Assembly (NCBI RefSeq): GCF_014280435.1
Contig: NZ_CP060388.1
Location: 1,612,001 to 1,676,000, forward strand
DNA length: 64,000 nt
Reading direction: 5' to 3'
DNA from: Sphingobium sp. KCTC 72723
GTDB lineage: Bacteria; Pseudomonadota; Alphaproteobacteria; Sphingomonadales; Sphingomonadaceae
Part shown: in pieces, positions 16,339-44,327 of the stretch
Numbering within the stretch: position 1 is the stretch's first letter
Layout of the letters: every line of letters starts with the position of its first letter
Notes under the pieces: generated by a model
The model's input: the letters and a program-made list of their open reading frames with translations, nothing else
What the model was told of the DNA's origin: nothing
The model's database searches: none
Program-made: the position numbers and the translations under genes

Positions 16339-17907
16339 CTAATCCACCGCGATCCCCTGCGCCGCCAGCCAGTCGCGCACCAGGGCCAGTGCGCCTTCAT
16401 GCCGTTTCCACCGCGCCACGGCGTCGGCGTTGATCGGCTGGCGCACCTGCGCCGCGCTCGGCGTCGCCACCGCTGCGCTATTTTCGTGGAACGACAGGCA
16501 GGCCGCGTCCCAATCCAGCCCGCAATGGGCCAGCATCGCGCGCGTCTGCCCCTCCTGATCCGCCACCAGCGCCTCATAGGACAGTGCCAGCAACCGCCCC
16601 GGAAACAGCCGTTCCCACATCGCCATCAGCCGGTCGAACCGCACATAGTAACGCGCAATGTCCATCAGGTCGTAGCTATAGGCATAATAGGTCGACTGGC
16701 TGGCGAACAGATTTTTATAATTGCTCCACAGCGTATCCATCGGGTGCCGCCGCAGGCACACCACCCGCGCATCGGGCAGGCTGTGCAATATATGGCCGAT
16801 ATACAGGAAGTTGGCGGGCAGCTTGTCGACGAAGCGCGCCTTGCCCTCCGGCCGGTGGTGGCTCGCCCGCGCCAGATAGGCCCGCCCCATCGCCGCCGGG
16901 TCCGCCGCCCCGCTTGCGACTATCGTCTCCGCGTCGATCACCAACCGTGACCGCGTGCCGGAAAGCTGCTTCACCGCCAGCGGCATCGCCTGCAACTCGC
17001 CCGCCGATGCAACCTGTGGATGGGACGACAGTATACGGTCAACCAAAGTGGTCCCGGTGCGCGGCATCCCGGTGACGAAAATCGGCGCGTCCCCGCAGTC
17101 ATGGCCAACGCCCCAGCCCGATGGCGGCCCATCCCTAAACAGCCGATCGATCGCATCGAAAATCGCTGCATCCTGCGCGAAGTCATAGCCGATCGTCTGC
17201 TTGTGCGCCGCATTGGCCGCCGACAGATGCGCGAACGCCTGCGCCCCGTTGCCCATATCCTCATGGCTCTTGGCCAGCGCATAGCGGATGCGCAGCACAT
17301 CCTCGGCCCGCGTCGCGCCTGCCAGCGCCGCCTCCAGTCGCGGCACCGGGTCCGCCTCCGCCCGCTGCCGCGCGAGCAGGCTCAGCGCATAATGCACCCG
17401 GCCATTGCCCGGATCGGCCGCCAATATCGCCTCATAATGGCCGCGCGCCGCATCGATTCGCCCGGTAAAACCGCACGCCGCCGCCAGATTATAGCGATAG
17501 TCCAGATTGTCCGGTTCGCGCTCCACCGCCCCTTCAAACGGCGCGACCGCCCCTTCATGATCGCCCAGCCGCACCAGCACGCAGCCGATCGTATCCAGCG
17601 TCATCGCGTCATCGGGTGCTTGCGCCATCGCCTCGCGCGCAGCCGCGCCCGCCTCGCCGTCGCGCCGCAGCAGGATCAACAGCCGGGCATAATGGGCCAG
17701 ATGTTCCGCCGCCCGCCCCCGCGCGACCGCATGTTCGATCATCGGCAGCGCCTTGGCCACCTGTCCCGCCTCCGCCGCCGCGATCCCCAGCAGGAAATAG
17801 CCCGCCGGATCGTCCGGCCGCGCCTTCGCCAGTTGCTGCGCCGCCTGCGCCGCCCCCGCCAGATCGCCCCGCGCCAGCGCCGCGCGCGCCTGCGCCTCCA
17901 ACGTCAC
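16339..17907 (-). CDS. TPR repeat / sulfotransferase family protein
   Basis: This 522-residue protein has tetratricopeptide repeats over about residues 1-225 and a sulfotransferase domain over about 240-520. The 5'-phosphosulfate loop is FVTGMPRTGTTLVDRIL and the 3'-phosphate motif is RRHPMDTLWSNYKN, so PAPS binding is plausible. Such fusions resemble tyrosylprotein sulfotransferases; the acceptor is unknown. A GTG start at 17907 is preferred because it overlaps the preceding stop codon as GTGA; a longer reading to 17997 merely overlaps the upstream gene. It is the last gene of the PPIase-HupE/UreJ operon. Confidence 0.82.
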   Translation of the reverse strand: MTLEAQARAALARGDLAGAAQAAQQLAKARPDDPAGYFLLGIAAAEAGQVAKALPMIEHAVARGRAAEHLAHYARLLILLRRDGEAGAAAREAMAQAPDDAMTLDTIGCVLVRLGDHEGAVAPFEGAVEREPDNLDYRYNLAAACGFTGRIDAARGHYEAILAADPGNGRVHYALSLLARQRAEADPVPRLEAALAGATRAEDVLRIRYALAKSHEDMGNGAQAFAHLSAANAAHKQTIGYDFAQDAAIFDAIDRLFRDGPPSGWGVGHDCGDAPIFVTGMPRTGTTLVDRILSSHPQVASAGELQAMPLAVKQLSGTRSRLVIDAETIVASGAADPAAMGRAYLARASHHRPEGKARFVDKLPANFLYIGHILHSLPDARVVCLRRHPMDTLWSNYKNLFASQSTYYAYSYDLMDIARYYVRFDRLMAMWERLFPGRLLALSYEALVADQEGQTRAMLAHCGLDWDAACLSFHENSAAVATPSAAQVRQPINADAVARWKRHEGALALVRDWLAAQGIAVD

Positions 17908-18896
17908 GCCGTCCCCACGGTAAAGCCGACCACCCGTTCGATCATCCAGAAGCAGCCGACGATCCCCGCGCCATAGAGCGCCGCCTGCCGCACCCACTGG
18001 TCCCGGTCGAACAGCGCCGCCAATTTCATCACGCCCAGCACGCAGCCGACGAAGATCAACTGCCCCAGTTCGACCCCGCCATTGAAGAACAGCAGCCCGG
18101 ACACGCGCTCATCGGGCGCAACGCCCAGTTCACGCAGCACCGTGGCAAACCCCAGCCCGTGCAGCAGCCCGAACCCTGCCACCACCGCGAGTTGCCGCCG
18201 CCGCGTGCGCGCATCGGGTTCATCGCCATGCGCGCGGATCGCTTCGCGCGCCATGAACGCTATCGACAGCGCGATAACCGCCTCCACCGGCGGCACCGGC
18301 ACCGTGACCATATCGAAAAAGGCCAGCGCCAGACTGAGCGAATGACCGATCGTGAAGGTCGTCACCAGCGCCAGCAAAAACCGCCCCCGTGCCAGCAGAC
18401 ACAGGCATAGCACGAACGCCAGATGGTCCCACCCGCCCAATATATGGACGATCCCCTGCCATGTATATTCGGTCGCGATTTCCGGCAGCGCCCGCGTCCG
18501 CGCCGCCACCGCCCCGATCGGCAGCGCCAGCGTGTCGCCATCGGGCTGCAACGCCTGTTGCACCCGCGTGCCGGTGGCGGTGGACAGGAACGTGCCGCCA
18601 TCCACGGCCCATGGCGTGACGATGGCATCGTCCGCCCGGATCGCCCGGTCGCACGCGATGCTGATGGCGTATCGCGTGACCGTCGCCTCGTTCAACCGCT
18701 CACGCGCCGTTTCCCGGCACCCGTCCGGCAGCCCCAGCGCCGCGTTGCTGGCCAGCACTGACGGCACCGACGCGCTGAGGTCAAGGCTGCCCGGTTCCAT
18801 CCCCGGCTGGATCGCATAGTCGCCCACGCGAAACACATCGGCCTGCGCGGGCGCGGCGATCAGTGCGAGCAGCAGGATCGCCCAGCGCAGCATCAT
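17904..18896 (-). CDS. HupE/UreJ family membrane protein with periplasmic N-terminal domain
   Basis: This 330-residue protein starts MMLRWAILLLALIAAPAQA, a signal peptide, followed by a periplasmic domain of about 130 residues and then six or seven membrane helices. The helical part carries HupE/UreJ motifs: HILGGWDHLAFVL, TTFTIGHSLSLALA and GFGLLHGLGFA. Relatives in hydrogenase and urease clusters are thought to move nickel or cobalt, but this N-terminally extended branch usually occurs outside them and its role is unproven. The ATG overlaps the PPIase stop (ATGA), and its own stop overlaps the next start (GTGA). Confidence 0.82.
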   Translation of the reverse strand: MMLRWAILLLALIAAPAQADVFRVGDYAIQPGMEPGSLDLSASVPSVLASNAALGLPDGCRETARERLNEATVTRYAISIACDRAIRADDAIVTPWAVDGGTFLSTATGTRVQQALQPDGDTLALPIGAVAARTRALPEIATEYTWQGIVHILGGWDHLAFVLCLCLLARGRFLLALVTTFTIGHSLSLALAFFDMVTVPVPPVEAVIALSIAFMAREAIRAHGDEPDARTRRRQLAVVAGFGLLHGLGFATVLRELGVAPDERVSGLLFFNGGVELGQLIFVGCVLGVMKLAALFDRDQWVRQAALYGAGIVGCFWMIERVVGFTVGTA

Positions 18897-19696
18897 TGCT
18901 CCACCCGCACGCGATAGCCCTGTTCCAGTTTCTGCACTTCGGCCTCGACCAAAGTGCCGCTCTGCTCGCTCAGAAAATCCTGCTTCACCTGATCGCGCAC
19001 CGCCGGATAGGGCAGCATGGCCGATGCTCCCCGGTCCCGCACCCGCGCGAAATGCCAGCCGCGCGTGGACTGGAGCGGGCCGATCCACTGGCCGGTCGGC
19101 GTCCTGTTCAACCTGTCGAGGAACGGCTGGCCGAACATGCCGCGCAGCATCGACACGCCATAATCGGGCAAATCATGCCCCATCCAGAAATCGTCGCCCT
19201 TCACCGTGCCACCCGCGTTCAGCCGCGCCAGCAGCGCAGGCGCATCGGCAGGCATTTTCTCGAAAAACACATGGTCCACCGACAGGCGCGGTTCGGCGCG
19301 ATACAGGTCGCGATGCGCGGCATAATAGCCCATCAACTGATCCTCGCTCGGCTCGGCCGGCGCTCCCGCAATCAGGAAGCGCACCCGGTCGATCAGCCGC
19401 TGCTTGGTCGTCTTATCGGTCATGTGCATACCGCGATCCACCGCTTCGCGGAACAGCAGTTCGTCGGCGACATAATCATGGACCAGCTTGGCTTTGGCCG
19501 CTGCATCCGGCTTCTTGCCCGCCATCATTTCATAATCGTCGGACAGGCTTTTCTGCACCGACAATGGCACCTCGATCGTCTCGCGCCGCGCCGTCACCAC
19601 CCAATAAAGCGCGAAGATCGCCCCCGCCACCAGCAGAAACACCAGAAACGGATCGCGCCCGGCAAAGACACGCAACGGAGCAGACAGACGGCGCAT
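18893..19696 (-). CDS. Membrane-anchored PpiC-type peptidyl-prolyl isomerase
   Basis: This 267-residue protein has an N-terminal membrane helix (about residues 14-32, PFLVFLLVAGAIFALYWVV), a SurA-like helical linker and a C-terminal parvulin-like domain (about 140-250, ending TRGWHFARVRDRG). It probably folds exported proteins, perhaps the HupE/UreJ partner encoded next. The start MRRLSAPL is chosen over two upstream in-frame starts because AAGGGG lies about 8 bases before it. It is the first gene of a three-gene coupled operon. Confidence 0.8.
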   Translation of the reverse strand: MRRLSAPLRVFAGRDPFLVFLLVAGAIFALYWVVTARRETIEVPLSVQKSLSDDYEMMAGKKPDAAAKAKLVHDYVADELLFREAVDRGMHMTDKTTKQRLIDRVRFLIAGAPAEPSEDQLMGYYAAHRDLYRAEPRLSVDHVFFEKMPADAPALLARLNAGGTVKGDDFWMGHDLPDYGVSMLRGMFGQPFLDRLNRTPTGQWIGPLQSTRGWHFARVRDRGASAMLPYPAVRDQVKQDFLSEQSGTLVEAEVQKLEQGYRVRVEQ

Positions 19697-19802
19697 CAGC
19701 GCAAAACCCCTTATCATTCTCACCGGGTTATGACGATAGCAGCCCATCCCCCCTCTACGTCAAATGACGGATTGGTCGGGCGAGGTGGCCACCCCCTCTC
19801 AC

Positions 19803-28341: not shown

Positions 28342-28346
28342 AACGC

Positions 28347-28787: not shown

Positions 28788-29786
28788 TTACAGCGAGGGC
28801 ATCTGCTGGCTGCAACAATGGAAACTGCCCCCGCCCGACAATATCGCGTCGCTGCGCAGCCCCACTATCTCCCGCCCCGGAAAGAAGGGCGCGAACGCAT
28901 CCAGCGCCGCCTGATCATTGGGCTGGCCATAGATCGGCACGATGACGGCAGCATTGCCGACATAGAAATTCATGTAGCTGGCCGGAATCGCTTCGCCGTC
29001 CACCATCACCAGACCGGGCGATGGAATGTCCGTCACCGCCACCCCCTGCGCCGTCGCCCGCGCCCGCGCATCGGCATAGATCGCCGCGTTGGGATCGTCC
29101 GGCGTCGTCGCGATCGGCAAAGCCAGCAGGCCCGGCGCGACGAACCGCGCCAGATTGTCGACATGCCCATCGGTATGATCGTTCAACAACCCGTCGCCCA
29201 GCCACAGCATGTCGGACAGGCCCAGGCTCCCGGCCAGCAACGTCTCTATCTTGCCCCGGTCCAGGTCCGGGTTGCGATTGGGGTTGAGCAGGCATTGTTC
29301 GGTCGTCACGAACAGGCCAGTGCCGTCCGTATCAATCGCGCCCCCTTCAAACACCCAGTTCTGCGTCGATACCAGCATCCCCGTGGTCGCGGCCAGCCGC
29401 GCGCCAATATCCTCGTCGCCCGGCATCTGATATTTACCGCCCCAGCCATTGAAGCCGAAATCGACCAGCGCCCGTCCATATTCTTTGGCGCCCGCACCGT
29501 TCAGCACCGCAATCGGCGCCGTGTCGCGCAACCATATGTCGCCAAGCCGCTGCACGATGATAGACACGCCCGGATCGACCAGCCCGCGCGCCACCTGCGC
29601 GTCCGCCTCCGTCGCAACGACCAGCCTGACCTCCTCGCCACGCCCGCCCGCATGGAGCGCACTGGCAAAGGCGGCGATCTGCGCCCGCGCATCGTCGAAC
29701 GCGCCGGGCCATTCGGCAGGGTTGGTCGGAAAGCCGATCCAAGTCCAGTCGTGCGGCGCCCATTCGGCAGGCATATGATATGTCAT
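28788..29786 (-). CDS. aguA: Agmatine deiminase
   Basis: This 332-residue guanidino-group modifying enzyme converts agmatine to N-carbamoylputrescine and ammonia. Visible motifs include WIGFPTN near the N-terminus, the RDTAPIAV and FNGWGGKY segments, the catalytic His in NDHTDGHVDNLARF, and the nucleophile Cys in the C-terminal GGGSFHCCSQQ. The start MTYHMPAEW has AAGGACG about 7 bases upstream; longer in-frame readings to 30140 have no homology. It is divergent from the DUF6265 gene. Confidence 0.94.
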   Translation of the reverse strand: MTYHMPAEWAPHDWTWIGFPTNPAEWPGAFDDARAQIAAFASALHAGGRGEEVRLVVATEADAQVARGLVDPGVSIIVQRLGDIWLRDTAPIAVLNGAGAKEYGRALVDFGFNGWGGKYQMPGDEDIGARLAATTGMLVSTQNWVFEGGAIDTDGTGLFVTTEQCLLNPNRNPDLDRGKIETLLAGSLGLSDMLWLGDGLLNDHTDGHVDNLARFVAPGLLALPIATTPDDPNAAIYADARARATAQGVAVTDIPSPGLVMVDGEAIPASYMNFYVGNAAVIVPIYGQPNDQAALDAFAPFFPGREIVGLRSDAILSGGGSFHCCSQQMPSL

Positions 29787-29898
29787 GATGTCGTCCTTGC
29801 TCGGCGGCGATGGTCGGCATCGGGGCCGATCCATGATAAGGCTTGGGTCGGCCCGCTCCATAGCGGCACGCGCCCGGTCTGGACAGGGGGAGAGTGGC

Positions 29899-30348
29899 AT
29901 GATGCGCAGGATTTTCACCAGCCTGGCGATGGCGCTGGCGGTTCCATTGACGGCGCAGGCCGGCGAACTGCCCGGCTGGATCGCGGGCGCATGGGTCGAA
30001 CGTAATGGCGACAGCTGGTCGGAGGAATATTGGTCCGGTCCACGCGGCGGCATCCTGCTCGGCGCGGCGCGCACGGGCAAAGGCAGCACGCTGGAATTTT
30101 GGGAACAGACCCGGATACAGATCGACCCGGACGGCAGCATCGCTTTCTATGCCTCGCCCAAGGGCGCACCCGCATCGCGTTTCCCCATGGTTTCGCAAAG
30201 CGCGACCGAAATCGTCTTTGCCAATGCCGCCCATGATTATCCCCAGCATATCCGCTACTGGCGCGACGGCAAATTCCTCCGCGCGGCAATAGCGAAGATC
30301 GACGGCAGCGCCGCGCGTGGCTGGACCTATGCGCCGATGGGGCAATAG
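29899..30348 (+). CDS. DUF6265 family exported protein
   Basis: This 149-residue protein has a signal peptide (MMRRIFTSLAMALAVPLTAQA, cleaved before GELPGW) and a single beta-rich domain with the family features WIAGAWVERNGDSWSEEYW, FWEQTRI and the end FANAAHDYPQHIRY. GGGGGAGAG precedes the start. The family is secreted and its function is unknown. It lies 75 bases before ureD and could in principle share its transcript. Confidence 0.78.
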   Translation: MMRRIFTSLAMALAVPLTAQAGELPGWIAGAWVERNGDSWSEEYWSGPRGGILLGAARTGKGSTLEFWEQTRIQIDPDGSIAFYASPKGAPASRFPMVSQSATEIVFANAAHDYPQHIRYWRDGKFLRAAIAKIDGSAARGWTYAPMGQ

Positions 30349-30423
30349 GGAAGGGATCGGGATAGCCCCGCTTCCGCCCCATACGTCATATACCCCATAT
30401 CCCGACCCGCATCGCAACCGCAC

Positions 30424-31281
30424 ATGTCGATCATGACCGCGCACGGCGCCATACCCCTCCCTCCCCGCTCCCGGCATCAGCGCGTCGATGGCCGCGCCAT
30501 GGTCGCCTTCGGCCCGCGCGGCATCCGCGACATGATGCAGGTCGCGCCTGCGCGCCTGCTGTTCCCCGACGGGCGCGAAGGCGACTTTCCCCTGTGCGTC
30601 ACGGTGACGACCAGCGGCGGGCTGACCGGGGGGGACCGGCTGGCGCTCGACATCATCGTCGATCCCGGCGTCGCCGCGACCATCGTGCCGCAGGCCGCCG
30701 AAAAACTCTATCGCGCGCTGGATGAGGACGAACCCACCCGCATCGACACCCGCATCGCCATCGGCGCGGGCGCGACCTGCGAATGGCTGGCGCAGGAAGC
30801 CATCCTGTTCGACCGCAGCAAAATGCGCCGCACGCTGGAGGCGGACATGGCCCCCGACGCGCGGATGCTGGCAATGGAAATGCTGGTGTTGGGGCGCAGC
30901 GCGATGGGCGAAACCTATCAGAGCGGCCTCATCCACGACAGTTGGCGCATCCGCCGGGGCGGGCGGCTGGTCTGGGCCGATGCGCTGCATGTCGAAGGCG
31001 ACTTTGCGACGCAGGGCCGCGCCCCCTTCGGCTTCGGCGATGCGAGCGCCATCGCCACCCTCGTCTATGCCGGGCCGGACGCTGCCGACTATCTCGACCT
31101 TGCCCGCACGCTGGTAGACGCGCCCACCGGCGGCGCGACCAGCTTCGATGGCCTCCTCATCCTGCGCCTGACTCGCAACGACGCGCAGGCGCTGCGCAAG
31201 GATGTGATGCGCGCGGCGGGCGTTTTGCGTGCCGCGATATTCGGACTGTCGCCCTCCATGCCTACAATCTGCTACTGCTGA
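30424..31281 (+). CDS. ureD: Urease accessory protein UreD
   Basis: This 285-residue chaperone binds urease apoprotein and forms the UreDFG complex for nickel delivery. Family segments are [36 protein letters not shown] and the motif [13 protein letters not shown]. The C-terminal end ([12 protein letters not shown]) is short but in keeping with sphingomonad members, so I see no frameshift. ureA starts four bases after its stop. It is the first gene of the ureDABCEFG operon. Confidence 0.92.
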
Positions 31282-31285
31282 TTCC

Positions 31286-31588
31286 ATGAACCTGACGGGA
31301 CGCGAAAAAGACAAATTGCTGGTGGCGATGGCCGCCATGGTCGCGCGGCAAAGGCTGGCGCGCGGGGTCAAACTCAACCATCCCGAAGCGATCGCGCTGA
31401 TCACCGACCATGTCGTCGAAGGCGCGCGCGACGGCCAGTCGGTCGCCACCCTGATGGCCAGCGGCGGCCACGTCCTGACCCGCGATCAGGTGATGGACGG
31501 CATCGCCGACATGATCCACGACATTCAGGTCGAAGCCACCTTCCCCGACGGCACCAAACTCGTCACCGTGCATCGGCCGATCCGGTGA
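31286..31588 (+). CDS. ureA: Urease gamma subunit
   Basis: This 100-residue structural subunit has the whole family sequence: [42 protein letters not shown] and the C-terminal [19 protein letters not shown]. It assembles with UreB and UreC in the cytoplasmic urease that hydrolyses urea to ammonia and CO2. The start follows the ureD stop by four bases. Confidence 0.96.
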
Positions 31589-31611
31589 GGGGCTTGGCGA
31601 CTCATACCTCC

Positions 31612-31677
31612 GTATTCCCGCGCAGGCGGGAACCCAGCCCCACCCTCTCGACTGGATTCCCGCCTGCGCGGGAACAC
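31612..31677. repeat. Inverted repeat in the ureA-ureB gap
   Basis: Arms 31612-31637 and 31652-31677 are reverse complements with two mismatches in 26, around a 14-base loop. The core TTCCCGCGCAGGCGGGAA is itself a hairpin. The element is the same family, with the same loop length, as 33747-33812 between ureC and ureE. Confidence 0.8.
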
Positions 31678-31697
31678 GGCGTGTCGGGGACAGCCCC

Positions 31698-32003
31698 ATG
31701 ATCCCCGGCGAAATCATCCCCGCCCCCGGCGACATCATCCTGAACGCAGGGCGTGCGCCCATCACGCTCACTATCGCCAACAGCGGCGACCGCCCGATTC
31801 AGGTCGGCAGCCATTATCATTTCGCCGAAACCAACCCCGCTTTGATCTTCGACCGAAAAGCCGCGCGCGGCCATCGCCTCGACATCCCGTCCGGCACCGC
31901 CGTCCGCTTCGAACCGGGCCAGACGCGCGACGTGCAACTCATCCCCTATGCCGGGGACCGTATCGTCATCGGCTTTCGCGGCGATGTGATGGGAACGCTA
32001 TGA
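31698..32003 (+). CDS. ureB: Urease beta subunit
   Basis: This 101-residue subunit begins [19 protein letters not shown] and contains [16 protein letters not shown] and [17 protein letters not shown], all typical of UreB. The length matches the family. It is separated from ureA by 109 bases that hold an inverted repeat; its stop is one base before the ureC start, so translation of ureB and ureC is likely coupled. Confidence 0.96.
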
Positions 32004-32004
32004 C

Positions 32005-33717
<1,713 letters not shown>

Positions 33718-33746
33718 TGGGTGCCGCGCCAACCCGATACAGCAAC

Positions 33747-33812
33747 GTGCTCCCGCGCAGGCGGGAGCCCAGCTCAACCGTCCCGACTGGGCTCCCGCCT
33801 GCGCGGGAGCAC
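33747..33812. repeat. Perfect inverted repeat in the ureC-ureE gap
   Basis: Arms 33747-33772 and 33787-33812 are perfect reverse complements over 26 bases around a 14-base loop. The arm core GCTCCCGCGCAGGCGGGAGC is itself a hairpin. It is the same family as 31612-31677. It lies in a 121-base gap inside the urease operon. Confidence 0.85.
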
Positions 33813-33838
33813 TTTATAGTCAATTTCGGAGCATCTCC

Positions 33839-34345
33839 ATGCTGACCGCCCACACCGTCCTCCCCCACGGCCACTGGTCCGGCCCCGCCGCCGACCATAT
33901 CATGCTGGATCATGACGCGCGCCACCGCCGCCGCTGGGTCTATACCGCCGATCATGGCACGCTGTTCCTGCTCGATCTGGCGCGCGCCACGGTGCTGAAC
34001 CATGGCGACGCGGTGCAACTGTCCGACGGTCGCCTCATTGAAATCCTCGCCGCGCCCGAAGCGCTGGTCGAAGTGACCGCCACGGACCCATCCGCGATGA
34101 TCCGCCTCGCCTGGCATATCGGCAACCGGCATCTGCCCGCCGAACTGCACCCCCACGCCATCCGCCTGCGCGACGATCATGTCATCAACGCCATGCTGTT
34201 GGGGCTGGGCGCGACCGTCACCAAAATCCACGCCCCGTTCACGCCCGAAGGCGGTGCCTATTCCGGCGGCGGCCACGATCATGGCCATCATCATCACGGC
34301 CACGACCATAACCACGATCACCACCATCACGACCATGCTGGCTGA
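33839..34345 (+). CDS. ureE: Urease accessory protein UreE (nickel metallochaperone)
   Basis: This 168-residue metallochaperone has an N-terminal UreE domain (to about residue 65) and a C-terminal metal-binding domain with the conserved WHIGNRHLPAEL. It ends in a His-rich tail (about residues 141-168, GHDHGHHHHGHDHNHDHHHH), which stores nickel in several species. Start MLTAHTVLPHG; a longer in-frame reading begins within the preceding repeat. Its 3' end overlaps ureF by 11 bases. Confidence 0.93.
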   Translation: MLTAHTVLPHGHWSGPAADHIMLDHDARHRRRWVYTADHGTLFLLDLARATVLNHGDAVQLSDGRLIEILAAPEALVEVTATDPSAMIRLAWHIGNRHLPAELHPHAIRLRDDHVINAMLLGLGATVTKIHAPFTPEGGAYSGGGHDHGHHHHGHDHNHDHHHHDHAG

Positions 34346-35015
34346 CGCCGCGCTCCACCGCCTGCTGGCCTGGACCTCCCCTTCCTATCCGGTGGGCAGC
34401 TTCACCTACAGCCACGGCCTGGAAACAGCGGTCGAGGATGGCCGCATCACTACGGCCGCCCATGTCACTGCCTATGTCGAAGCCGTGCTGGCGCGCGGTG
34501 GCGGCTGGATCGACGCTGTGCTGTTCGTCCACGCCCACCGCGCCGCGCAGGACGATGCCGCCTTCGACGCCCTCTCCGAACTCGCCGCCGCCTTCCGGGG
34601 CAGCAGCGAAACCGCGCTCGAAAGTCGGCAGCAGGGCGGCTCCTTCCTCTCGGTCACGCGCAAAGCCTGGCCCCACCCCGCGCTGGACGCTTTCGCCGCG
34701 CGCAATGGCGATCACCCGATCGCCCACGCCACCGTCATGGCGCTCGCCTGCGCCGTCCACGCCATCCCGCTCGAACCCGCGCTGCACGGCTGGCTTCACG
34801 CCACTGCCGCCAATCTCGTCTCGGCGGGCGTGCGGCTTGTGCCACTGGGCCAGACCGATGGCCAGTTGGCGCTGGCCGCGCTATCCCACGCCATTCCCGC
34901 CATTGCCGCAAAAGCGCTCGCCACCCCGCTCGACGACCTCGGCACCGCCGCCCCGGACCTCGAACTTGCCAGCCTGTCCCACGAAACACTCTATACAAGG
35001 TTGTTCCGCTCATGA
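34335..35015 (+). CDS. ureF: Urease accessory protein UreF
   Basis: This 226-residue all-helical partner of UreD and UreG gates GTPase activity during nickel insertion. The family start [21 protein letters not shown] is present, as are [11 protein letters not shown] and the C-terminal [13 protein letters not shown]. The start lies inside the His-tail codons of ureE (11-base overlap) and the stop overlaps the ureG start (ATGA). Confidence 0.93.
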
Positions 35016-35656
35016 ATCCGGTTCTTTCTGGCAACAACGGTCCCCTTCGCGTCGGCATCGGCGGCCCGGTCGGCTCCGGCAAGACCGCGCTGACCGACCG
35101 CCTGTGCAAGGCGATGCGCGACCATTATAACATCGCCGCCATCACCAACGACATCTACACCCGCGAAGATGCCGAATTTCTCACCCGCTCCGGCGCGCTG
35201 GTGCCTGAACGGATCATGGGCGTGGAAACCGGCGGCTGCCCGCACACCGCGATCCGTGAGGATGCCAGCATCAACCTGGCCGCCGTGGATACGATGAGCC
35301 GCAAATTCCCCGGCCTCGAACTCATCTTCATCGAAAGCGGCGGCGACAATCTGGCCGCCACCTTCTCGCCCGAACTGGCCGACATCACCATCTACGTCAT
35401 CGACGTATCGGCGGGCGACAAGATCCCGCGCAAAGGCGGCCCCGGCATCACCCGCTCCGACCTGCTCCTCATCAACAAGATCGATCTCGCCCCCTTCGTC
35501 GGCGCGGACCTCAATGTCATGGACCGGGACGCAAAGAAGATGCGCGGGCAGCGCCCCTTCCTCTTCACCAACCTGAAAGACAATATCGGGCTACCCGCCG
35601 TCATCGACTTCATCGTTGCGACCGGCGGCCTGCGCCCCTTCCCCGCCGCGATCTGA
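35012..35656 (+). CDS. ureG: Urease accessory GTPase UreG
   Basis: This 214-residue SIMIBI GTPase powers nickel delivery to UreC. The P-loop is GPVGSGKT (residues 18-25); the metal-binding switch motif is [15 protein letters not shown] (CPH), and guanine recognition is in [10 protein letters not shown]. Unlike some homologues it has no N-terminal His stretch. Its TGA stop overlaps by one base the ATG of the permease-kinase gene. Confidence 0.96.
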
Positions 35657-38600
35657 TGGACCGCGCCGCCTATGTCCTGCGCGAAAAGCGGCTCTACAAT
35701 AAGTGGGTCGCCAGCCAGACATTGGAGGATTATGCCCTGCGCTACACTGCCGACAGCGCCCGGCGCTGGTCGGCGGGGCAGGTCGCCAATACCGCGATCG
35801 GCGCGACCGCCTTCCTCGCCTGCGAAGCGATCGGCGCGTCGATCACCCTGACCTACGGCTTTGCCAACAGCGTCGCGGCCATCGCCGCCGCCGTCGCCCT
35901 GATGTTCGTCATCGGGCTGCCCATCGCCTATCACGCCGCCAAACATGGGCTGGACATCGACCTGCTCACTCGTGGCGCAGGGTTCGGCTATCTTGGCTCC
36001 ACCCTCACTTCGCTCATCTACGCCAGCTTCACCTTCCTGCTCTTTTCGGTCGAAGCGACCATCATGGCCGTCGCGCTCACCGCGATGACCGGGATGCCCA
36101 TGAGCATCGCCTATCTGGTCAGCGCGCTGGTCGTCATCCCCATCGCCCTGTACGGCATGAGCGCCATCACCCGGTTTCAGAATGCGACGCAAGGGCTATG
36201 GATCGCGCTGCAAATCGCCCCCATCGCCTATATACTCTGGTCCGGTCCGGCCGCCCTTTCCCAATGGTCGCGCTTCACTGGCCAGCTTGGCGCACCCGAC
36301 GGCAGCGTCAGCCTGCTCTATTTCGGCTTCGCCCTCTCCACGCTCCTCTCCCTTTTGCCGCAAATCGGCGAGCAGGCGGATTATCTCCGCTTCCTGCCCA
36401 GCGCGCAAAAGATCGGTAAAGGCAAATGGTGGGCCGCCATGCTCGCTGGCGGCCCCGGCTGGACGCTCATCGGGGGGCTAAAGCTGCTGCTTGGCTCCTG
36501 GCTCGCCCATTATCTGATCGGCAGCGCCGCATCGGCCAGCGATGCCGCCAGCCCGACCGTCATGTTCCAGACCATCTTTACCGCCATGTCGGGCCATGCC
36601 GGGCTGTCGCTGGTGCTGACTGGCCTGTTCGTCATCATCTGCCAGCTCAAGATTAACGTCACCAACGCCTATGCAGGCTCCATCGCCTGGTCCAATTTCT
36701 TCGCCCGCCTGACCCACAGCCACCCCGGCCGCGTCGTGTGGCTGCTGTTCAACGTCCTCCTCGCGCTGCTGCTGATGGAAGTCGGCATTTTCGACGCGAT
36801 CGAAGCGATCCTGATCCTCTACGCCACGGTGGCTGCGGGCTGGATCGGCGCGCTCGCGGCCGACCTCATGATCTCCAAGCCGCTGCGCCTCTCGCCCGCC
36901 GGAATCGAATTCAAACGCGCCCATCTCTACGACATAAACCCCGTCGGCATCGGCGCGATGCTCCTGTCCATCCTGATGTCGGGCAGCGCGCATCTGGGCC
37001 TGCTTGGGCAACTGGCGCAGGCATTCGCCCCGGTGATCGGCATGGCGGTCGCGTTCACCGCCGCGCCGGTGATCGCGCTCATCACCCATGGCCGCTACTA
37101 TATCGCCCGCCGCTCCCACTGGGCCGACGGCGCGGAAACCAAGACCTGCATCATCTGCGAAAACGCCTTTCAGCCTGTCGATATGGCGCATTGCCCGATG
37201 TATGCCGCGCCGATCTGCTCGCTCTGCTGCACGCTGGAGGCGCGCTGCCACGACCGCTGCAAATCCGACAGCCGCGCCACGCAACAAGCGGCGCGCTGGC
37301 TCGAACGCCTCCTGCCCGGCGGCATAGCGCGCCACGTCCATACGCCCGTGGGCCATTTCATTGCGGTCATGACGCTCATCACGCTCGCCAATGCCGGGAT
37401 CATGAGCGGCGTCGCCTGGCAATTCGCCCGCCGCGCACCTGCCGCCGCGACTCAGATCAACAGCCTGATGCTCGGCCTGTTCCTCCTCTTCTCGCTCATC
37501 GGCGGCGTGATCGCCTGGATGATCGTGCTGGCGCATCAAAGCCGCCGCACCGCGATGCAGGAAAGCGAACATCATGTGCAAAAGCTGATGGAGGAGGTGA
37601 TCGCCCACGACATCACCGGCGCGGAACTGCAAAAGGCAAAGGAAGCCGCCGAATCCGCCAACGCCGCCAAAAGCCGCTATCTGGTCAGCGTCAGCCACGA
37701 AATCCGCTCGCCGCTCAACTCCATATACGGCTATGCGCAACTGATGGAGCGCGGCCACGACATCGCGCCCGTGGAAGCCGCCAAGATCATTCGCCGCAGC
37801 GCCGAACATCTGACCAATCTGGTCGAAGGACTGCTGGACATATCGCAGGTCGAAAGCGGCGTGTTGCGCATCAGCAGCGAAACCGTGCGCCTTGCCCCTT
37901 TCGTCGATCAGATCGCCAACATGTTCCGCCCGCAGGCGCAGGCAAAGGGCATCGACTTTCTGTTCGAACGCCCCGACCAACTGCCCGATTTCGTCCGCAC
38001 CGACCAGAAACGCCTGCGCCAGATCCTCATCAACCTGCTGTCCAACGCGATCAAGTTCACCCGCTCCGGCGCAGTCACCTTTCGCGTCGCCTATCGCAGC
38101 CAGATGGCGACGTTCGACATCATCGACACCGGCCTTGGCATCGCCCCCGATGACCTGAAGCGCGTGTTCGACCCCTTCGAACGCGGCAGCAACCCCGACG
38201 CGCAACGGCAAAAGGGCATCGGCCTTGGCCTGTCGATCACCCAGGCGCTGGTCCAGATATTGGGCGGCGACCTGTCCGTCGTCAGCGAAGCGGGGCGCGG
38301 AACCCAATTCACCGTCCGCCTGATGCTCGGCCATGTCGCCAACCCGGTGGAGGATGCGCCGCCGGTGGACCGGATATCCGGCTATGTCGGCGACCGCCGC
38401 AAAGTGCTGCTGATCGACGATGATCCCGCCCAGGTCGCGGTGCTGCGCGGCCTGCTCGAACCGCTCGACTTCACCGTGATGGAGGCATTGAGCGGGCGTG
38501 CGGGGCTGGAAATAGCCGCGCACGAAGCGCCCGACATCGTCCTGCTCGACATTTCCATGCCCGGCGAATCCGGCTGGGACATCAGCCGGGCATTGCGCGA

Positions 38601-39015
38601 AACATTGGGCGGCGCGGTGCGCATCATCATGGTGTCGGCCAATGCGCATGAATATCATCGCGGCGGCGACGGGCAGGCGGCACATGACATGTTCCTGATG
38701 AAGCCGGTCGATCTCGACGCGCTGCTGGACGCGATCGCCGATCAGCTTCATATCCGCTGGACCGGCGACGCGCCGCTGCCACCCGTCCCTGCGCCGGACG
38801 ACCTGACCCTGCCCGACCTGCCGGAGGACGCGCTGCCGATTCTGGCCGACATCGAACATAAAGCCATCATCGGTCATGTGCGCGGCATCGAATCGAGCAT
38901 CCGCGCGCTGGAGGAAGCCGTGCCGCACGCCCGGCCGCTCGCCGCCCGGATGCTCGCCCATCTCGACCGTTTCGACCTCAAGGGGCTGATAAAAATCATA
39001 AGGGCCGTAAAATGA
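35656..39015 (+). CDS. NCS1-type permease / hybrid histidine kinase fusion
   Basis: This 1119-residue protein joins a transporter and a sensor kinase. Residues 1-490 form about twelve membrane helices of the NCS1 (purine/cytosine/allantoin/hydantoin) symporter type, beginning RRWSAGQVANTAIG. A Cys-rich module follows (from Cys498: CIICEN, then CSLCC and CHDRC), then two more helices (about 570-640), the HisKA domain with phospho-acceptor His681 in SVSHEIRSPLNS, and the ATPase domain (NLLSNAIKF, DTGLGIAP, GIGLGLSI). A receiver with Asp965 in VLLDISMPG and a C-terminal helical domain complete it. The ATG overlaps the ureG stop by one base, so it belongs to the urease operon. The ligand is probably urea, a ureide or a related nitrogen compound. 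Confidence 0.85.
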   Translation: MDRAAYVLREKRLYNKWVASQTLEDYALRYTADSARRWSAGQVANTAIGATAFLACEAIGASITLTYGFANSVAAIAAAVALMFVIGLPIAYHAAKHGLDIDLLTRGAGFGYLGSTLTSLIYASFTFLLFSVEATIMAVALTAMTGMPMSIAYLVSALVVIPIALYGMSAITRFQNATQGLWIALQIAPIAYILWSGPAALSQWSRFTGQLGAPDGSVSLLYFGFALSTLLSLLPQIGEQADYLRFLPSAQKIGKGKWWAAMLAGGPGWTLIGGLKLLLGSWLAHYLIGSAASASDAASPTVMFQTIFTAMSGHAGLSLVLTGLFVIICQLKINVTNAYAGSIAWSNFFARLTHSHPGRVVWLLFNVLLALLLMEVGIFDAIEAILILYATVAAGWIGALAADLMISKPLRLSPAGIEFKRAHLYDINPVGIGAMLLSILMSGSAHLGLLGQLAQAFAPVIGMAVAFTAAPVIALITHGRYYIARRSHWADGAETKTCIICENAFQPVDMAHCPMYAAPICSLCCTLEARCHDRCKSDSRATQQAARWLERLLPGGIARHVHTPVGHFIAVMTLITLANAGIMSGVAWQFARRAPAAATQINSLMLGLFLLFSLIGGVIAWMIVLAHQSRRTAMQESEHHVQKLMEEVIAHDITGAELQKAKEAAESANAAKSRYLVSVSHEIRSPLNSIYGYAQLMERGHDIAPVEAAKIIRRSAEHLTNLVEGLLDISQVESGVLRISSETVRLAPFVDQIANMFRPQAQAKGIDFLFERPDQLPDFVRTDQKRLRQILINLLSNAIKFTRSGAVTFRVAYRSQMATFDIIDTGLGIAPDDLKRVFDPFERGSNPDAQRQKGIGLGLSITQALVQILGGDLSVVSEAGRGTQFTVRLMLGHVANPVEDAPPVDRISGYVGDRRKVLLIDDDPAQVAVLRGLLEPLDFTVMEALSGRAGLEIAAHEAPDIVLLDISMPGESGWDISRALRETLGGAVRIIMVSANAHEYHRGGDGQAAHDMFLMKPVDLDALLDAIADQLHIRWTGDAPLPPVPAPDDLTLPDLPEDALPILADIEHKAIIGHVRGIESSIRALEEAVPHARPLAARMLAHLDRFDLKGLIKIIRAVK

Positions 39016-39935
39016 CCACCCCTACCCCTCACAGCGATACCGTTCTCGTCGTGGACGACACGCCCGAATCGCTGCGCTTTCTGACCGACACGCTGGAGGC
39101 GGCGAACATCTCCGTCCTCATCGCTACCAGCGGCGAAGCCGCGCTCGAACTGCTCGCCCATGTGACTCCCGACCTCATCCTCATGGATGCGGTCATGCCC
39201 GGCCTCGACGGCTTCGAAACCACCCGCGCTATCAAACAGACGCCACGCGGCGCCCCGGTGCCGATCATCTTCATGACCGGCCTGACCGAAAGCGAACATG
39301 TCGTCCATGCGCTGGAGGCTGGCGGCGTCGATTATGTGCGCAAACCCATCGTGGTCGAGGAACTGCTCGCCCGCGTCCGCGTCCATATGGCCAATGCGCG
39401 CCAGACGCAGGGCGGCCATTATGCGCTGGACGCCACTGGCCGCAACCTGATCGCCGTTGGTGCGGATGGCGTGCTGTCCTGGCGCACGCCGGGCGCGGAC
39501 CGGTTGATGGAAGCGCTTGAACCCGGCTGGTCACGCACCGACGCCACACTCCCCACCATGTTGCGCGCACCCGTCGCCCGCCTCCTGCCGCAGGATCTGC
39601 CCGCCGGCACCACGATCAAGACCGAAAGCCCCGGCGGCGACACCGTCGAACTCATCATCGTCGGCCGCCCCCGCCGCGACGAAACCCTCGTCCGCCTCAA
39701 CCATCTCGACCCGCAAGCCGACATCGCCCGCTTGCAAAGCCATTTCGGCCTGACCCAGCGCGAAGCCGAAGTGCTGCTCTGGATCAGCTACGGCAAGCCC
39801 AACCGCGTCATCAGCGAAATCCTGGTCATCAGCCCGCGCACCGTGAACAAGCATCTGGAACAGATTTTCGAAAAACTGGGCGTGGAAACACGGGCAGCGG
39901 CGGCAGCCTTCGCTGTAAGAGTGATCGCGCATTAA
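39012..39935 (+). CDS. LuxR-family response regulator
   Basis: This 307-residue regulator has an N-terminal receiver (VLVVDDTPESL, phospho-acceptor Asp59 in DLILMDAVMPG, Lys in VDYVRKPI) and a C-terminal LuxR/GerE helix-turn-helix (LTQREAEVLLWISYGKPNRV, then ISPRTVNKHLEQIFEKLGV). A central segment of about 100 residues links them. It overlaps the kinase gene by four bases, so it is the kinase's cognate regulator, and probably acts on the urease or nearby nitrogen genes. Confidence 0.92.
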   Translation: MTTPTPHSDTVLVVDDTPESLRFLTDTLEAANISVLIATSGEAALELLAHVTPDLILMDAVMPGLDGFETTRAIKQTPRGAPVPIIFMTGLTESEHVVHALEAGGVDYVRKPIVVEELLARVRVHMANARQTQGGHYALDATGRNLIAVGADGVLSWRTPGADRLMEALEPGWSRTDATLPTMLRAPVARLLPQDLPAGTTIKTESPGGDTVELIIVGRPRRDETLVRLNHLDPQADIARLQSHFGLTQREAEVLLWISYGKPNRVISEILVISPRTVNKHLEQIFEKLGVETRAAAAAFAVRVIAH

Positions 39936-40658: not shown

Positions 40659-41657
40659 TTAATTCCCCTCCAACCCCGCCAGCATCTCGCTGCTCACCGG
40701 CACCCCCTCACGCATCGCCCTTTCGCGCGCGGCAAAGCGCCGGTCGCCCGGCATCCGCGCCTGCCCCGCCTCGCCCAGCGCCTCGACCAACTGCTCCACC
40801 CGCGCCGCAAAGCCCGCGCCGGAACCCCCGCGCGCCGGGTCGATCAGGATCACGCATTCCCCGGTGCAGGGCGTCTGCGCGCCGGGATGCGCCGACCAGT
40901 CGACCTCATGCGAAAACAGCCCGCCGGTCAGCGCAGCGGCCATGATCTCGATCATCATTGCGATCGACGCACCCTTATGCCCACCAAAGGCCAGCAACGC
41001 CCCGCCGTTCAACACCGCGTGCGGATCGGTCGTCGCCACGCCTGCCGCATCCACGCCAACACCGGGCGGCAGCGCCCGCCCCTCCCGCGCCGCAATCTGC
41101 ACATCGCCATGCGCCATCACGCTGACGGCCTGATCGAACACCACGATCTTGCCGTCCCCACGCGGCGCAGCGAAAGCCAGCGGGTTAGTGCCATAGACGG
41201 GTCGCTGCGCCCCTTCCGGCACGACCACTGCCATACTGTCCACCATCGCCAGCGCCACCAGACCAGCCTCCGCAAACGGCTCCACATCGGGCCATAGCGC
41301 GCCGAAATGATGCGACCGCCGGATCGCGATCACGCACGCCCCGGTTTCTCGCGCCCGCTCCATCGCCAGCGGGGCCGCCGCCGCCAGTGCAGGCTGGGCA
41401 AAGCCATTGGCCGCATCGACCCGCAGGAAGGACGCGCCTGCATCCTCCACCACCGGCACCGCCGCGCCATCCACCCACCCGCTGCGCAGCGTCGCTACAT
41501 AGCCTGCCATGCGAAACAGCCCATGGCTCGCCGCCCCGTCCCGCTCCGCCCCGGCACAGTTGCGCGCCAATATCGCCGCATTGGCCCGCGACACGCCATG
41601 CGCCACGAACACCCGCTCCAGCAGCGCGACCAGCGCCTCGAAATCCATATGCGTCAT
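40659..41657 (-). CDS. dpkA: Ldh-family imino-acid reductase, DpkA-like
   Basis: This 332-residue protein belongs to the Ldh/malate-type NAD(P)H oxidoreductases. From memory, its sequence pattern closely follows Pseudomonas DpkA, the delta1-piperideine-2-carboxylate / delta1-pyrroline-2-carboxylate reductase: SHGLFRMAGYV, GFAQPALAAAAPLA, RRSHHFGALWPDVEPFAE, YGTNPLAFAAP and FGGHKGASIAMMIE. Such enzymes act in lysine, pipecolate, D-amino-acid or trans-hydroxyproline catabolism. The start MTHMDFEAL is used; ATG three codons later is an alternative. It is divergent, 86 bases apart, from a ureohydrolase gene, suggesting a shared guanidino- or amino-acid pathway. Ureidoglycolate or malate dehydrogenase activity is less likely. 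Confidence 0.75.
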   Translation of the reverse strand: MTHMDFEALVALLERVFVAHGVSRANAAILARNCAGAERDGAASHGLFRMAGYVATLRSGWVDGAAVPVVEDAGASFLRVDAANGFAQPALAAAAPLAMERARETGACVIAIRRSHHFGALWPDVEPFAEAGLVALAMVDSMAVVVPEGAQRPVYGTNPLAFAAPRGDGKIVVFDQAVSVMAHGDVQIAAREGRALPPGVGVDAAGVATTDPHAVLNGGALLAFGGHKGASIAMMIEIMAAALTGGLFSHEVDWSAHPGAQTPCTGECVILIDPARGGSGAGFAARVEQLVEALGEAGQARMPGDRRFAARERAMREGVPVSSEMLAGLEGN

Positions 41658-41743
41658 GCCGTCATCCCCGCCCCGTTCACCCACGCCCGCCATACGCCAT
41701 TTGCCCTATTGCACCGCCCTTCTCGCCGCCCAGACTGCCGCCC

Positions 41744-42787
41744 ATGGCCAACGACCCTCTCGATCTCGACGCCCTGCGCCGCCTCTATGCCGGCACCGGC
41801 GGCGCGGACATTCACGATCCCCATTTCCGCGACGTCGCCGGGCTGCAATTCAAAAATGGTGACAAGCGCCGCTGGCCCTTCGCCCAGCCCTCCACTTTGC
41901 TCGACGCCCCCTATATCGCGGGCGGCCTGACGCGCGAAACGCTCGATGCGCTGGACGTCGCGCTCATCGGCGTGCCGATGGACCTTGGCGTCACCAACCG
42001 CCCCGGCGCGCGTTACGGCCCGCGCGCCGTCCGCGCGGTCGACCGCATCGGTCCCTACGAACATGCGCTGCGCATTGCGCCCATGAACCACCTCAACGTC
42101 GCCGATGTCGGCGACGTGCCGATGCAGAGCCGCTATGACCTGTCGCTGTGCCACGCCGACATAGAGGAATGTTACGCCATGATCGGCGCGACAAAGGCCA
42201 TCCCCCTCTCGGTCGGGGGCGATCACAGCATCACCGGATCGATCATGAAGGGGCTGGCCGCCGCACGCGGGCCGATGGGCATGGTCCATTTCGATGCGCA
42301 TTGCGACACCGGCGGCATCTATGAAGGCTCCAAATTCCACCATGGCGCGCCCTTCCGCGAAGCCGTGCTGGCAGGCGTGCTGGACCCCAGACGCTGCATC
42401 CAGATCGGCATCAGGGGCGGGGCGGAATATCTGTGGGAATTTTCCTACGCCAGCGGCATGACCGTCATCCATGCCGAAGAATGCGCGCGCGTCGGCATGG
42501 ACGCCGTGGTCGCAAAAGCCCGCGAAACCGTCGGCACCGGACCCACCTATGTCACTTTCGACATAGACGGCCTCGACCCCGTATACGCTCCCGGCACCGG
42601 CACCCCGGAAGTCGGCGGACTTTCGACGCGCGAAGCGCTGACCCTGCTGCGCGGTCTAGCGGGCATCGACATCATCGGCGGCGACGTGGTGGAGGTCGCA
42701 CCCGAATATGACCCCACGACCCTGACTGCGCAGGCCGCCGCGCAAATGCTGTTCCAGTTGCTCTGCCTCGTCCAACTCCGCGCATGA
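41744..42787 (+). CDS. Cytoplasmic ureohydrolase (agmatinase/guanidinobutyrase type)
   Basis: This 347-residue manganese enzyme hydrolyses a guanidino compound to urea and an amine or amino acid. Metal ligands are present: His in SVGGDHSITG, Asp/His/Asp in FDAHCDTGG and two Asp in FDIDGLDPVYAPGTGTPEVGG. No signal peptide is seen, so it is cytoplasmic, unlike the other ureohydrolase at 23506. Whether the substrate is agmatine, 4-guanidinobutyrate, 3-guanidinopropionate or guanidine cannot be read from the sequence; the coupled permease and the neighbouring DpkA-like gene favour a guanidino acid. Its stop overlaps the permease start (ATGA). Confidence 0.85.
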   Translation: MANDPLDLDALRRLYAGTGGADIHDPHFRDVAGLQFKNGDKRRWPFAQPSTLLDAPYIAGGLTRETLDALDVALIGVPMDLGVTNRPGARYGPRAVRAVDRIGPYEHALRIAPMNHLNVADVGDVPMQSRYDLSLCHADIEECYAMIGATKAIPLSVGGDHSITGSIMKGLAAARGPMGMVHFDAHCDTGGIYEGSKFHHGAPFREAVLAGVLDPRRCIQIGIRGGAEYLWEFSYASGMTVIHAEECARVGMDAVVAKARETVGTGPTYVTFDIDGLDPVYAPGTGTPEVGGLSTREALTLLRGLAGIDIIGGDVVEVAPEYDPTTLTAQAAAQMLFQLLCLVQLRA

Positions 42788-44220
42788 CCGTCACCACCGC
42801 GCCCGAACCAGCCTTGCGCCGGGGCGTCACCGGACCCGGCTTCTTCGCGCTCGCTTTCGGTACGATCGTCGGGTCGGCATGGATGGTGCTGATGGGCGAA
42901 TGGGTCAGTCCCGCCGGGCCGGGCGGCGCAGTCCTTGCCTTCATGGGCATGACCCTGCTGATGGTCCCCATCGCCGCCGCCTATGCCGAACTGGTCGCCC
43001 GCGTGCCGCGCGCGGGCGCGGAATTCGTGTTCGTCGAACGCGCCTTCGGCCGCTGGCCCGGCTTCGTCACCGGCTGGTTCCTCACCCTCTATTTCATCGG
43101 CATCGCCGCATTCGAAGGGCTGGCGCTTTCCTGGTTCCTCGAAAATCTCTTTCCCGCGCTCGCCGGGCAAACCCCGCTCTACACATTGCTGGGCAAGCCG
43201 GTCAGCGCGATGGATCTGGGCGTGGGCCTGACCGGCGCGATCGTCATGACATGGCTCAATGCGTCGGGCGCGACCGTGGCGGTGGGGTTTCAGAAAGTCG
43301 TGACCTTCGCCTTCCTCGCCGCCTCCGCCCTGCTGGTCGTGATCGGCTTTGCACAGGGCGACCCGGCCAACTGGCACCCCCTGTTCGAATCGGCGCAGGG
43401 ACGCAGTTTTGGCGGCGGCATGTTCGTGATGCTGGGCGTCGCGGGCATGTGGCTCGCCGGGTTCCAGACCGCAGCCTCAGCGGTGGAGGAACGCGCGCCC
43501 GGCACCAGCTTCACCACCGTCGCCCGCGCAATGATGGGCGCAGTCGCCGTCGCGGCAATCTTCTACAGCCTCATCATCCTCGCCTCCGCCTCGCTCATCC
43601 CCTGGCATGATCTGAACAGCGGCGCGCTGCCTGTCGCCGCCGCTTTCGACCATGCGCTGGCGGGCGGCGTCGCGACGAAGGGCATCCTGCTCGTCGCCAT
43701 GGCCTCCCTGCTCAAGACATGGAACGCCATGCACCTGTCGGCCACCCGCGTCATCCTGGCGCAGGCGCGGGCGGGCATCCTGCCCGCCACTCTTGCCCAT
43801 ATCGACGCCCGCACCGGCGCACCCCGCCGCGCCGCGCTGCTGGTCGGTCTTTGCACCTGCCTTGGCGTGCTGGCCGGGCGCGGCGCGATCGGCCCGATCA
43901 TCTCGATGGGGACCATGTGTACCACCGCCATCGCCGCGCTCGCCCTGTTCGCGCTGATGCGCCTGCGCGCCACCGACAGCAGCGGCGAAAAACCCGCCTT
44001 CCTCCTCCCCGGCGGCAAGCCCCTGCTGGCCACCATCGCCATCGGTGCAACCATCGTCGCCACCGCCGCCATCGCCACCCCCTTTGGAATAAGCGCGGGG
44101 ATGCCCGTGGAAATCTGGCTGATGCTCGGCTGGCTGGCCGTGGGTGTCGCGCTGGTAACGGGTCGCCACGTCATGACCCGCCCCCAAAATCCTCCCCCAC
44201 AGGGGGAGGATGTGCCGTGA
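42784..44220 (+). CDS. APC-family amino acid/polyamine permease
   Basis: This 478-residue protein has about twelve membrane helices and the APC family start GPGFFALAFGTIVGSAWMV. Helix 1 has the substrate-binding-like G-x-G region, and YAELVARVPRAGAEFVF follows helix 2. It is probably an amino acid, guanidino acid or polyamine importer. It is translationally coupled to the ureohydrolase, which points to import of that enzyme's substrate. The last eleven residues (QNPPPQGEDVP) come from a CCTCCCC-type repeat that has entered the reading frame. Confidence 0.85.
   Translation: MTVTTAPEPALRRGVTGPGFFALAFGTIVGSAWMVLMGEWVSPAGPGGAVLAFMGMTLLMVPIAAAYAELVARVPRAGAEFVFVERAFGRWPGFVTGWFLTLYFIGIAAFEGLALSWFLENLFPALAGQTPLYTLLGKPVSAMDLGVGLTGAIVMTWLNASGATVAVGFQKVVTFAFLAASALLVVIGFAQGDPANWHPLFESAQGRSFGGGMFVMLGVAGMWLAGFQTAASAVEERAPGTSFTTVARAMMGAVAVAAIFYSLIILASASLIPWHDLNSGALPVAAAFDHALAGGVATKGILLVAMASLLKTWNAMHLSATRVILAQARAGILPATLAHIDARTGAPRRAALLVGLCTCLGVLAGRGAIGPIISMGTMCTTAIAALALFALMRLRATDSSGEKPAFLLPGGKPLLATIAIGATIVATAAIATPFGISAGMPVEIWLMLGWLAVGVALVTGRHVMTRPQNPPPQGEDVP
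44191..44209. repeat. CCTCCCC-type hairpin inside the permease 3' end
   Basis: CCTCCCCC and GGGGGAGG form a perfect 8-bp hairpin with a 3-base loop just before the stop codon of the APC permease. It is a short copy of the repeat seen at 10120 and 46191, here translated as the permease C-terminus. Confidence 0.6.
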
Positions 44221-44327
44221 CCGCCCGACCAAAACTGTCGTCCAACCCGCTTTTACCGCAATAAAATATTTCCCTCCGGCCCCCAAGCGCCTAAAGGCAC
44301 CAGACTATCGCTTGAAGGACGCCTCCC

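Follow-up and report, generated by a model that had tools for sequence, protein, structure and literature searches.

A predicted NCS1 transceptor kinase beside urea and amide genes in Pseudomonadota

Secondary transporters of the LeuT fold are linked to histidine kinases in CbrA/CbrB and CrbS (MxtR)/CrbR, and CrbS also has a receiver (accessible portions of PMC7918813, PMC13022988 and PMC5715377). The available text further reports that CbrA transports histidine and that the related PrlS/PrlR has a LuxR-type partner (PMC7918813, PMC13022988); a recent CbrA preprint, in the part at hand, calls transporter–kinase fusion rare (PMC13022988). Ks-Amt5 is reported, in the accessible part of its description, to bind ammonium without translocating it (PMC5764959). 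Here we describe a protein in which an NCS1-like permease is fused to a hybrid histidine kinase. It is encoded at the end of a urease operon in a 64,000-nucleotide stretch of the Sphingobium sp. KCTC 72723 genome (contig NZ_CP060388.1, positions 1,612,001 to 1,676,000), referred to below as the window, in whose numbering coordinates are given. We hold it reasonably probable that this protein is a transceptor kinase for urea or short amides that, via the adjoining regulator, turns on their uptake and hydrolysis.

The fusion protein and its permease part

The fusion is encoded at 35656..39015 (+) by a single frame of 1119 codons uninterrupted by stops, which together with the domain matches bears out the initial annotation of a 1119-residue protein containing a permease, a Cys-rich part, a histidine kinase and a receiver. 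Hydropathy places 12 transmembrane segments within residues 47–476, inside a permease part of residues ~1–481 (35656..37098, +) to which a fold search assigns the NCS1 fold. Two extra transmembrane helices, at 568–586 and 608–626 (37357..37533, +), stand ahead of the kinase. Between these units lies a Cys module (residues 498–535; 37147..37260, +), delimited by a listing of Cys residues and an alignment of 43 members, with Cys at 498, 501, 513, 521, 524, 525, 531 and 535; the permease part itself holds Cys 56 and Cys 329. HisKA (672–735) and HATPase (782–891), which together cover 37669..38328 (+), and the receiver (917–1027; 38404..38736, +) all exceed Pfam cut-offs, and the kinase part has H, N, G1, F and G2 boxes. 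The Pfam scan found no family between the permease and kinase parts; no search directed at STAC was made. We do not claim a classical Hpt domain for the C-terminal tail (~1031–1119): the tail is partly conserved, but the His of its best-kept patch varies.

The next gene encodes a response regulator of 307 residues with a receiver and a LuxR-type (GerE) DNA-binding domain (39012..39935, +; open reading frame and Pfam), so that all components of a hybrid histidine kinase with a paired regulator – HisKA, HATPase, receiver and adjoining regulator – are found. Both overlaps described for the locus are seen in the coordinates: the final base of the ureG TGA, at 35656, doubles as the A of the fusion ATG (one base), and the fusion frame ends at 39015, four bases into the regulator frame that starts at 39012. 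A protein search scored at least 8000 homologues, none with an E value above 0.001, and the best 120 are at least 54% identical. The fusion is real and not a product of chance, because the eight-Cys motif is present in 121 of 121 sequences (the query and the best 120 of 8000 scored homologues) and because ureG, the fusion and the regulator stand together in all 20 close-relative loci, 17 of them from named sphingomonads.

The permease part is assigned to NCS1 on the basis of its modelled fold and its kinship through a stand-alone relative, P0123. A fold search with the predicted permease structure gave CodB and Mhp1 as best matches, at 12–17% identity in the structure alignments. P0123, which is 39% identical, matches the Pfam NCS1 profile PF02133, as does a stand-alone permease of genome G193 that is 29% identical to the permease part. 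The NCS1 homology claimed at the outset is therefore recovered by fold and through two stand-alone relatives that pass the profile, though Pfam is silent on this protein. Sequence alone gave no proof, because searching solved structures directly with a profile of the permease alignment reached only zinc fingers (weak matches, to the Cys module, E 1.3–3.2); the fold search did. The Pfam scan of the fusion gave no Amt match, and absence from the fold-search listing excludes no family. The G193 permease (G193:C40; L092 5949–7439) has no Cys tail, and a gene for a urtA-like binding protein lies ~2 kb onward (226 bits, under the UrtA cut-off).

Urea and amide genes beside the fusion

Fifty-two of 398 Pseudomonadota genomes carry the fusion and 144 carry ureC; ureC is present in 49 of the 52 fusion genomes versus 95 of the 346 others (Fisher p ~4e-21, uncorrected for shared ancestry). 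The fusion loci number 57 (61 rows minus the stand-alone G193:C40 and the second pieces of split matches in G019, G379 and G389), and 55 of them lie within 20 kb of ureC, urtA or formamidase; the two loci without such neighbours, G111:C125 and G224:C31, are truncated where their contigs end. Within the same distance urtA occurs at 48 loci, formamidase at 38 and ureC at 19, and 34 loci have both urtA and formamidase but no ureC. The most frequent arrangement is divergent: urtABCDE and formamidase run one way, the fusion the other. The genomic link with urease or urea transport, which the initial annotation looked for with urease, is thus strong across homologues; unrelated genes adjoin the fusion at 2 of 14 plasmid loci. 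Urease would nevertheless be one output among several, rather than the likely output as first suggested, because urtABCDE with formamidase is the commonest partner.

In the close relatives (each locus reaching at most 10 kb either side of the permease match) the fusion is up to 96% identical over its first 640 residues. The whole of ureDABCEFG is matched in 18 of the 20; the exceptions are L031, which has no ureC match, and L032, whose contig begins inside the operon. Fusion matches were also found on 525 plasmid records, 342 of them from Klebsiella, a few of these matches being stand-alone or partial permeases. Of 14 plasmid fusion loci opened, 12 have urt genes within 12 kb. On one Klebsiella plasmid (L057) the fusion adjoins urtABCDE–formamidase, with a perfect palindrome between them. 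A CG307 preprint gives the name UTS to a cluster that, by its description, is apparently similar, and the accessible part of its text contains neither 'two-component' nor 'histidine kinase' (PMC13060141). The listed plasmid records mostly annotate the fusion as 'ATP-binding protein', as 'hybrid sensor histidine kinase' or not at all, so that its sensing part goes unseen. Database names already hint at a permease–kinase fusion, since three of the best 120 homologues (P0010, P0102 and P0112) have a JGI name, partly cut off, that combines histidine kinase with purine-cytosine permease-like.

In the window, ureDABCEFG (30424–35656) runs straight into the fusion and then into the LuxR-type regulator. 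Its genes, all on the forward strand, are ureD (30424..31281), ureB (31698..32003) and ureG (35012..35656), each with a profile match; ureC (32005..33717), recognised by Pfam; and three for which the frame is given as listed, namely ureA (31229..31588; profile match from residue 20), ureE (33692..34345; true start probably later) and ureF (34179..35015; profile match from residue 90).

Agmatine-related and arginase-family genes lie on both sides of urease. An arginase-family gene (23413–25017, +) stands upstream of urease, and 17 of the 20 close-relative loci have an arginase-family match ahead of ureD, at 34–38% identity to the other one in the window. The closest solved chain to the 23413–25017 product is 7esr/7oi1, 'Probable agmatinase 2' (156.8 bits), which we take to be a guanidine hydrolase; the product is a possible urea-making partner of this urease. 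Before ureD, 27289–30140 (−) holds an agmatine deiminase-like gene (under NCBIfam cut-offs) and an N-carbamoylputrescine amidase gene (TIGR03381, 446 versus 410 bits). After the regulator, 41387–46178 (+) holds an agmatinase-type gene (TIGR01230, above cut-off), an amino acid permease and a dihydroxy-acid dehydratase; the first two recur in 3 of the 20 close-relative loci. Agmatine as a theme of the family was dropped, both agmatine-route genes before ureD being unmatched in the close-relative loci (up to 10 kb each side).

These neighbours bear on a reading in which the permease part binds some other small nitrogen compound – a nucleobase, hydantoin, allantoin or a guanidino compound – and urea is a later breakdown product. 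The solved NCS1 matches, the cytosine transporter CodB and the hydantoin-binding Mhp1, would suit it, as would the agmatine and arginase-family genes that flank urease here and, for the latter, in most relatives. However, the constant partners of the fusion across the phylum are a urea transporter, formamidase and urease, two stand-alone relatives of the permease part likewise sit at urease and formamidase, and the deiminase and amidase genes do not recur in the stretch compared; we regard this reading as unlikely. Of the ligands first proposed we keep urea and, judging from neighbouring genes, do not favour uracil, allantoin or hydantoin: urea and short amides form the class in which we expect the ligand.

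The palindrome TACG-N8-CGTA

A scan for gapped 4-mers in 26 divergent upstream regions placed TACG-N8-CGTA first, in 20 of the 26, where the best pattern of one shuffled set reached 12; the longer form is ATACGYM-N4-KRCGTAT. Perfect TACG-N8-CGTA occurs in 37 of 48 fusion-linked urtA promoters versus none of 80 urtA promoters from fusion-less genomes. It is the commonest of all palindromes with 4-base arms and a spacing of 0–14 in the linked promoters, the runner-up being present in 27 of the 48 linked and 10 of the 80 fusion-less ones. The fusion-less control comprises 80 of 85 such urtA genomes (G109, G115, G183, G238 and G299 left out). Also left out of the promoter count were one linked urtA site (G314), two unlinked ones (G379:C13 and G200:C98) and the present genome; the G314 upstream stretch (L015) had no perfect site, and its inclusion would give 37 of 49. 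G111:C74 was counted as linked despite a contig break that hides the link.

Among urtA promoters unlinked to the fusion but in genomes that carry it, 5 of 32 have the palindrome. Four of these (G389, G379, G225 and G019) belong to genomes in which the fusion is at urease and urtA lies 40–244 kb off, the fifth being G174; sites at such distant urtA genes are as expected for control in trans. As constant neighbour of the fusion, the LuxR-type regulator would be the natural reader of the palindrome.

It might be argued that linkage reflects mere co-inheritance, the kinase riding with urea and amide clusters while controlling something else. That 306 of the 525 matching plasmid records are typed conjugative would fit such a history, as would the two plasmid loci in 14 that have no urea genes. 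Co-inheritance sits poorly with the split between linked and fusion-less urtA promoters, and equally with the four distant urtA genes that carry the palindrome although the fusion is at urease; we think it very improbable.

The 14 plasmid loci form a separate positive set. In the promoter regions covered, nine of them carry a perfect site, which lies between urtA and the fusion at seven loci, ahead of ureD at one and, in Tistrella, ahead of the fusion itself. Chance alone would produce one perfect TACG-N8-CGTA in roughly every 65 kb, so single extra sites in a 26-kb locus mean little. Azospirillum oryzae has a further site before an aliphatic amidase gene, which may be due to chance.

In the present genome a half-site, ATACGTCA (30381..30388, +), stands 43 bases ahead of the ureD start and is a predicted regulator site. 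Of the 20 regions compared, 19 have it ahead of ureD: the window itself and 18 of the 19 relatives, in which the distance is 43–87 bases. There is no full palindrome at ureD, and no perfect TACG-N8-CGTA anywhere in the window. In Methylovirgula, ureD is preceded by ATACGTCAAACGCCGTAG, a full site whose departure from the relatives' form is mostly in the second arm; the element at ureD is plausibly the same palindrome in weakened form. Genome-wide there are four matches to TACGTCANNTGACGTA at up to two mismatches, two of them at one mismatch, compared with one for the reversed control. One of these two best matches, TACGTCAAATGACGGA (19756..19771, no strand assigned), is one mismatch from TACGTCANNTGACGTA and lies directly upstream of a gene for a PPIC-type rotamase (18893..19747, −), which is followed by a HupE/UreJ family gene (17904..19088, −; frame as listed, profile match at residues 209–356); both are predicted targets. 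The other lies ~104 kb off, between urtA and a divergent rotamase–HupE/UreJ-like pair. The proteins of the two pairs (17904–19747, − in the window; L095 9537–11370, +) are 49% and 52% identical, and each of the two best palindrome copies in the genome has such a pair beside it.

Family history, proposed mechanism and known systems

Four Cys of the module (C498, C501, C521 and C524) are invariant in all 43 aligned members, two stand-alone permeases included. In the latter, from Klebsiella and Moraxella, the C-terminal tail corresponds to the first half of the module; C513 and C525 are replaced, and C531 and C535 fall past the ends of the tails. Because stand-alone permeases already end in its first half, the module appears older than the fusion: it is probably a zinc-ribbon-like permease tail that predates addition of the kinase and may bind metal. 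The idea that the Cys-rich linker is special to the fusion accordingly falls away. One of the stand-alone permeases (L056 4344–11548, Klebsiella) is annotated 'cytosine permease', is Cys-tailed and follows ureG in a urease operon; from its gene position it may be a urea permease. The L056 record lists no ureC, and an IS110-like element separates ureB and ureE.

In G091:C3 and G197:C2 the unit of permease, Cys module and two helices is joined to a kinase without a receiver, beside formamidase; these kinase-swapped fusions (L093 5502–8183; L094 6666–9362) lie on the same strand as a formamidase gene ~3 kb downstream, with no urtA within 20 kb. A permease tree of 61 sequences was read without support values: the stand-alone pair splits first, the kinase-swapped pair next and then the receiver-type fusions, and the urease-linked members are spread over at least three positions.

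Conservation of all eight Cys could also mean that the permease is an uptake protein or an inert anchor and that the module reads metal (zinc or nickel) or redox state. The four positions replaced or missing in the stand-alone tails would agree with this, as would the motif-bearing rotamase–HupE/UreJ pair in this genome, urease being an enzyme that requires nickel. But the four-Cys core is present in permeases that have no kinase and so is probably structural, and many loci pair the fusion with urtA and formamidase, which is no nickel enzyme, and have no ureC nearby. A metal or redox sensor therefore seems distinctly doubtful.

We return to the transceptor kinase. From what was computed, namely the order of the domains, the NCS1 fold, the genomic linkage and the tie between motif and fusion, we infer a course for the ligand, the side on which it is sensed, the relay, the binding of the motif by the regulator and activation rather than repression. 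The permease part, which has stand-alone kin encoded in urease and formamidase clusters, would bind urea or a short amide, which it may still move. The histidine kinase would read the conformational cycle of the permease by way of the cytoplasmic Cys module and the two extra helices, and a phosphorelay would carry the signal on to the adjoining LuxR-type regulator. The regulator would then bind TACG-N8-CGTA sites and turn on uptake through urtABCDE and hydrolysis through ureDABCEFG, formamidase and perhaps amidase; in this genome it would also turn on the two rotamase–HupE/UreJ pairs.

Several observations weigh against this reading. PF02133 is matched neither by this protein nor by any fused member scanned, nor by the Moraxella stand-alone relative P0122. 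With a stand-alone permease as query, the 398 genomes returned only fusion frames (at least 894 residues), so stand-alone relatives, on which the ligand argument partly rests, are rare in that sample. No Hpt domain was recognised in the fusion, so that the sequence does not fix the relay path. At the plasmid loci of Azospirillum lipoferum (L053) and Tistrella (L059), no gene for urea or amide use lies within 12 kb. As to the palindrome, the 48 linked promoters include the set in which it was discovered, and 11 of them have no perfect site (5 of these by one arm mismatch); 5 of the 14 plasmid loci likewise have none, and the ureD site here is a half-site whose second half is lineage-specific. 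An exact scan for the 18-base form in the 52 genomes gave 17 sites, 10 of them at most 500 bases ahead of urtA or formamidase and 7 elsewhere; the reversed control pattern gave 5 sites.

With these points counted, the balance still tips towards an undescribed class of NCS1 transceptor kinase: a common urea or amide sensor of Pseudomonadota with at least two kinds of kinase, a palindrome of its own and a regulon of uptake, hydrolysis and HupE/UreJ genes. If so, a widespread sensor of compounds whose use – that of urea and formamide – matters for soil nitrogen and in urine-rich habitats has its ligand class, partner, operator and regulon all predicted, and two questions are opened to testing: how outside urea or amides are sensed, and whether signalling needs transport. 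Among the papers listed in searches of the open-licence literature, none was on an NCS1–kinase fusion or on a regulator for urt–formamidase clusters; 'poorly described' accordingly suits the NCS1 version, but transporter–kinase fusions as such are known for SLC5 and Amt.

Comparison with described systems sets the fusion among them. CbrA and CrbS, the latter with a LuxR-type partner in CrbR, share with it a LeuT-type-fold transporter, a linker and a histidine kinase, and CrbS a receiver too; they differ in having an SLC5/SSS transporter of 13 transmembrane segments, a STAC linker and a role in histidine or acetate metabolism, where the fusion has an NCS1 permease, a Cys module with two helices, and urea and amide genes. 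UreR also switches urease genes in response to urea, as the system proposed here would, but it is a one-component AraC-type protein. CodB and Mhp1 share the overall fold of the permease part, at the low identity given above; unlike the fusion they have no kinase and handle cytosine or hydantoin. Ks-Amt5, according to the accessible part of its description, likewise has a nitrogen transporter fold that does the sensing for a histidine kinase, but with the Amt fold, for ammonium and in one anammox bacterium (PMC5764959), whereas the NCS1 fusion occurs in 52 of 398 genomes. The fusion is an NCS1 version of the known transporter–kinase fusions: next to SLC5 and Amt, the folds of the better known members, NCS1 is a third, and with it comes a large family.

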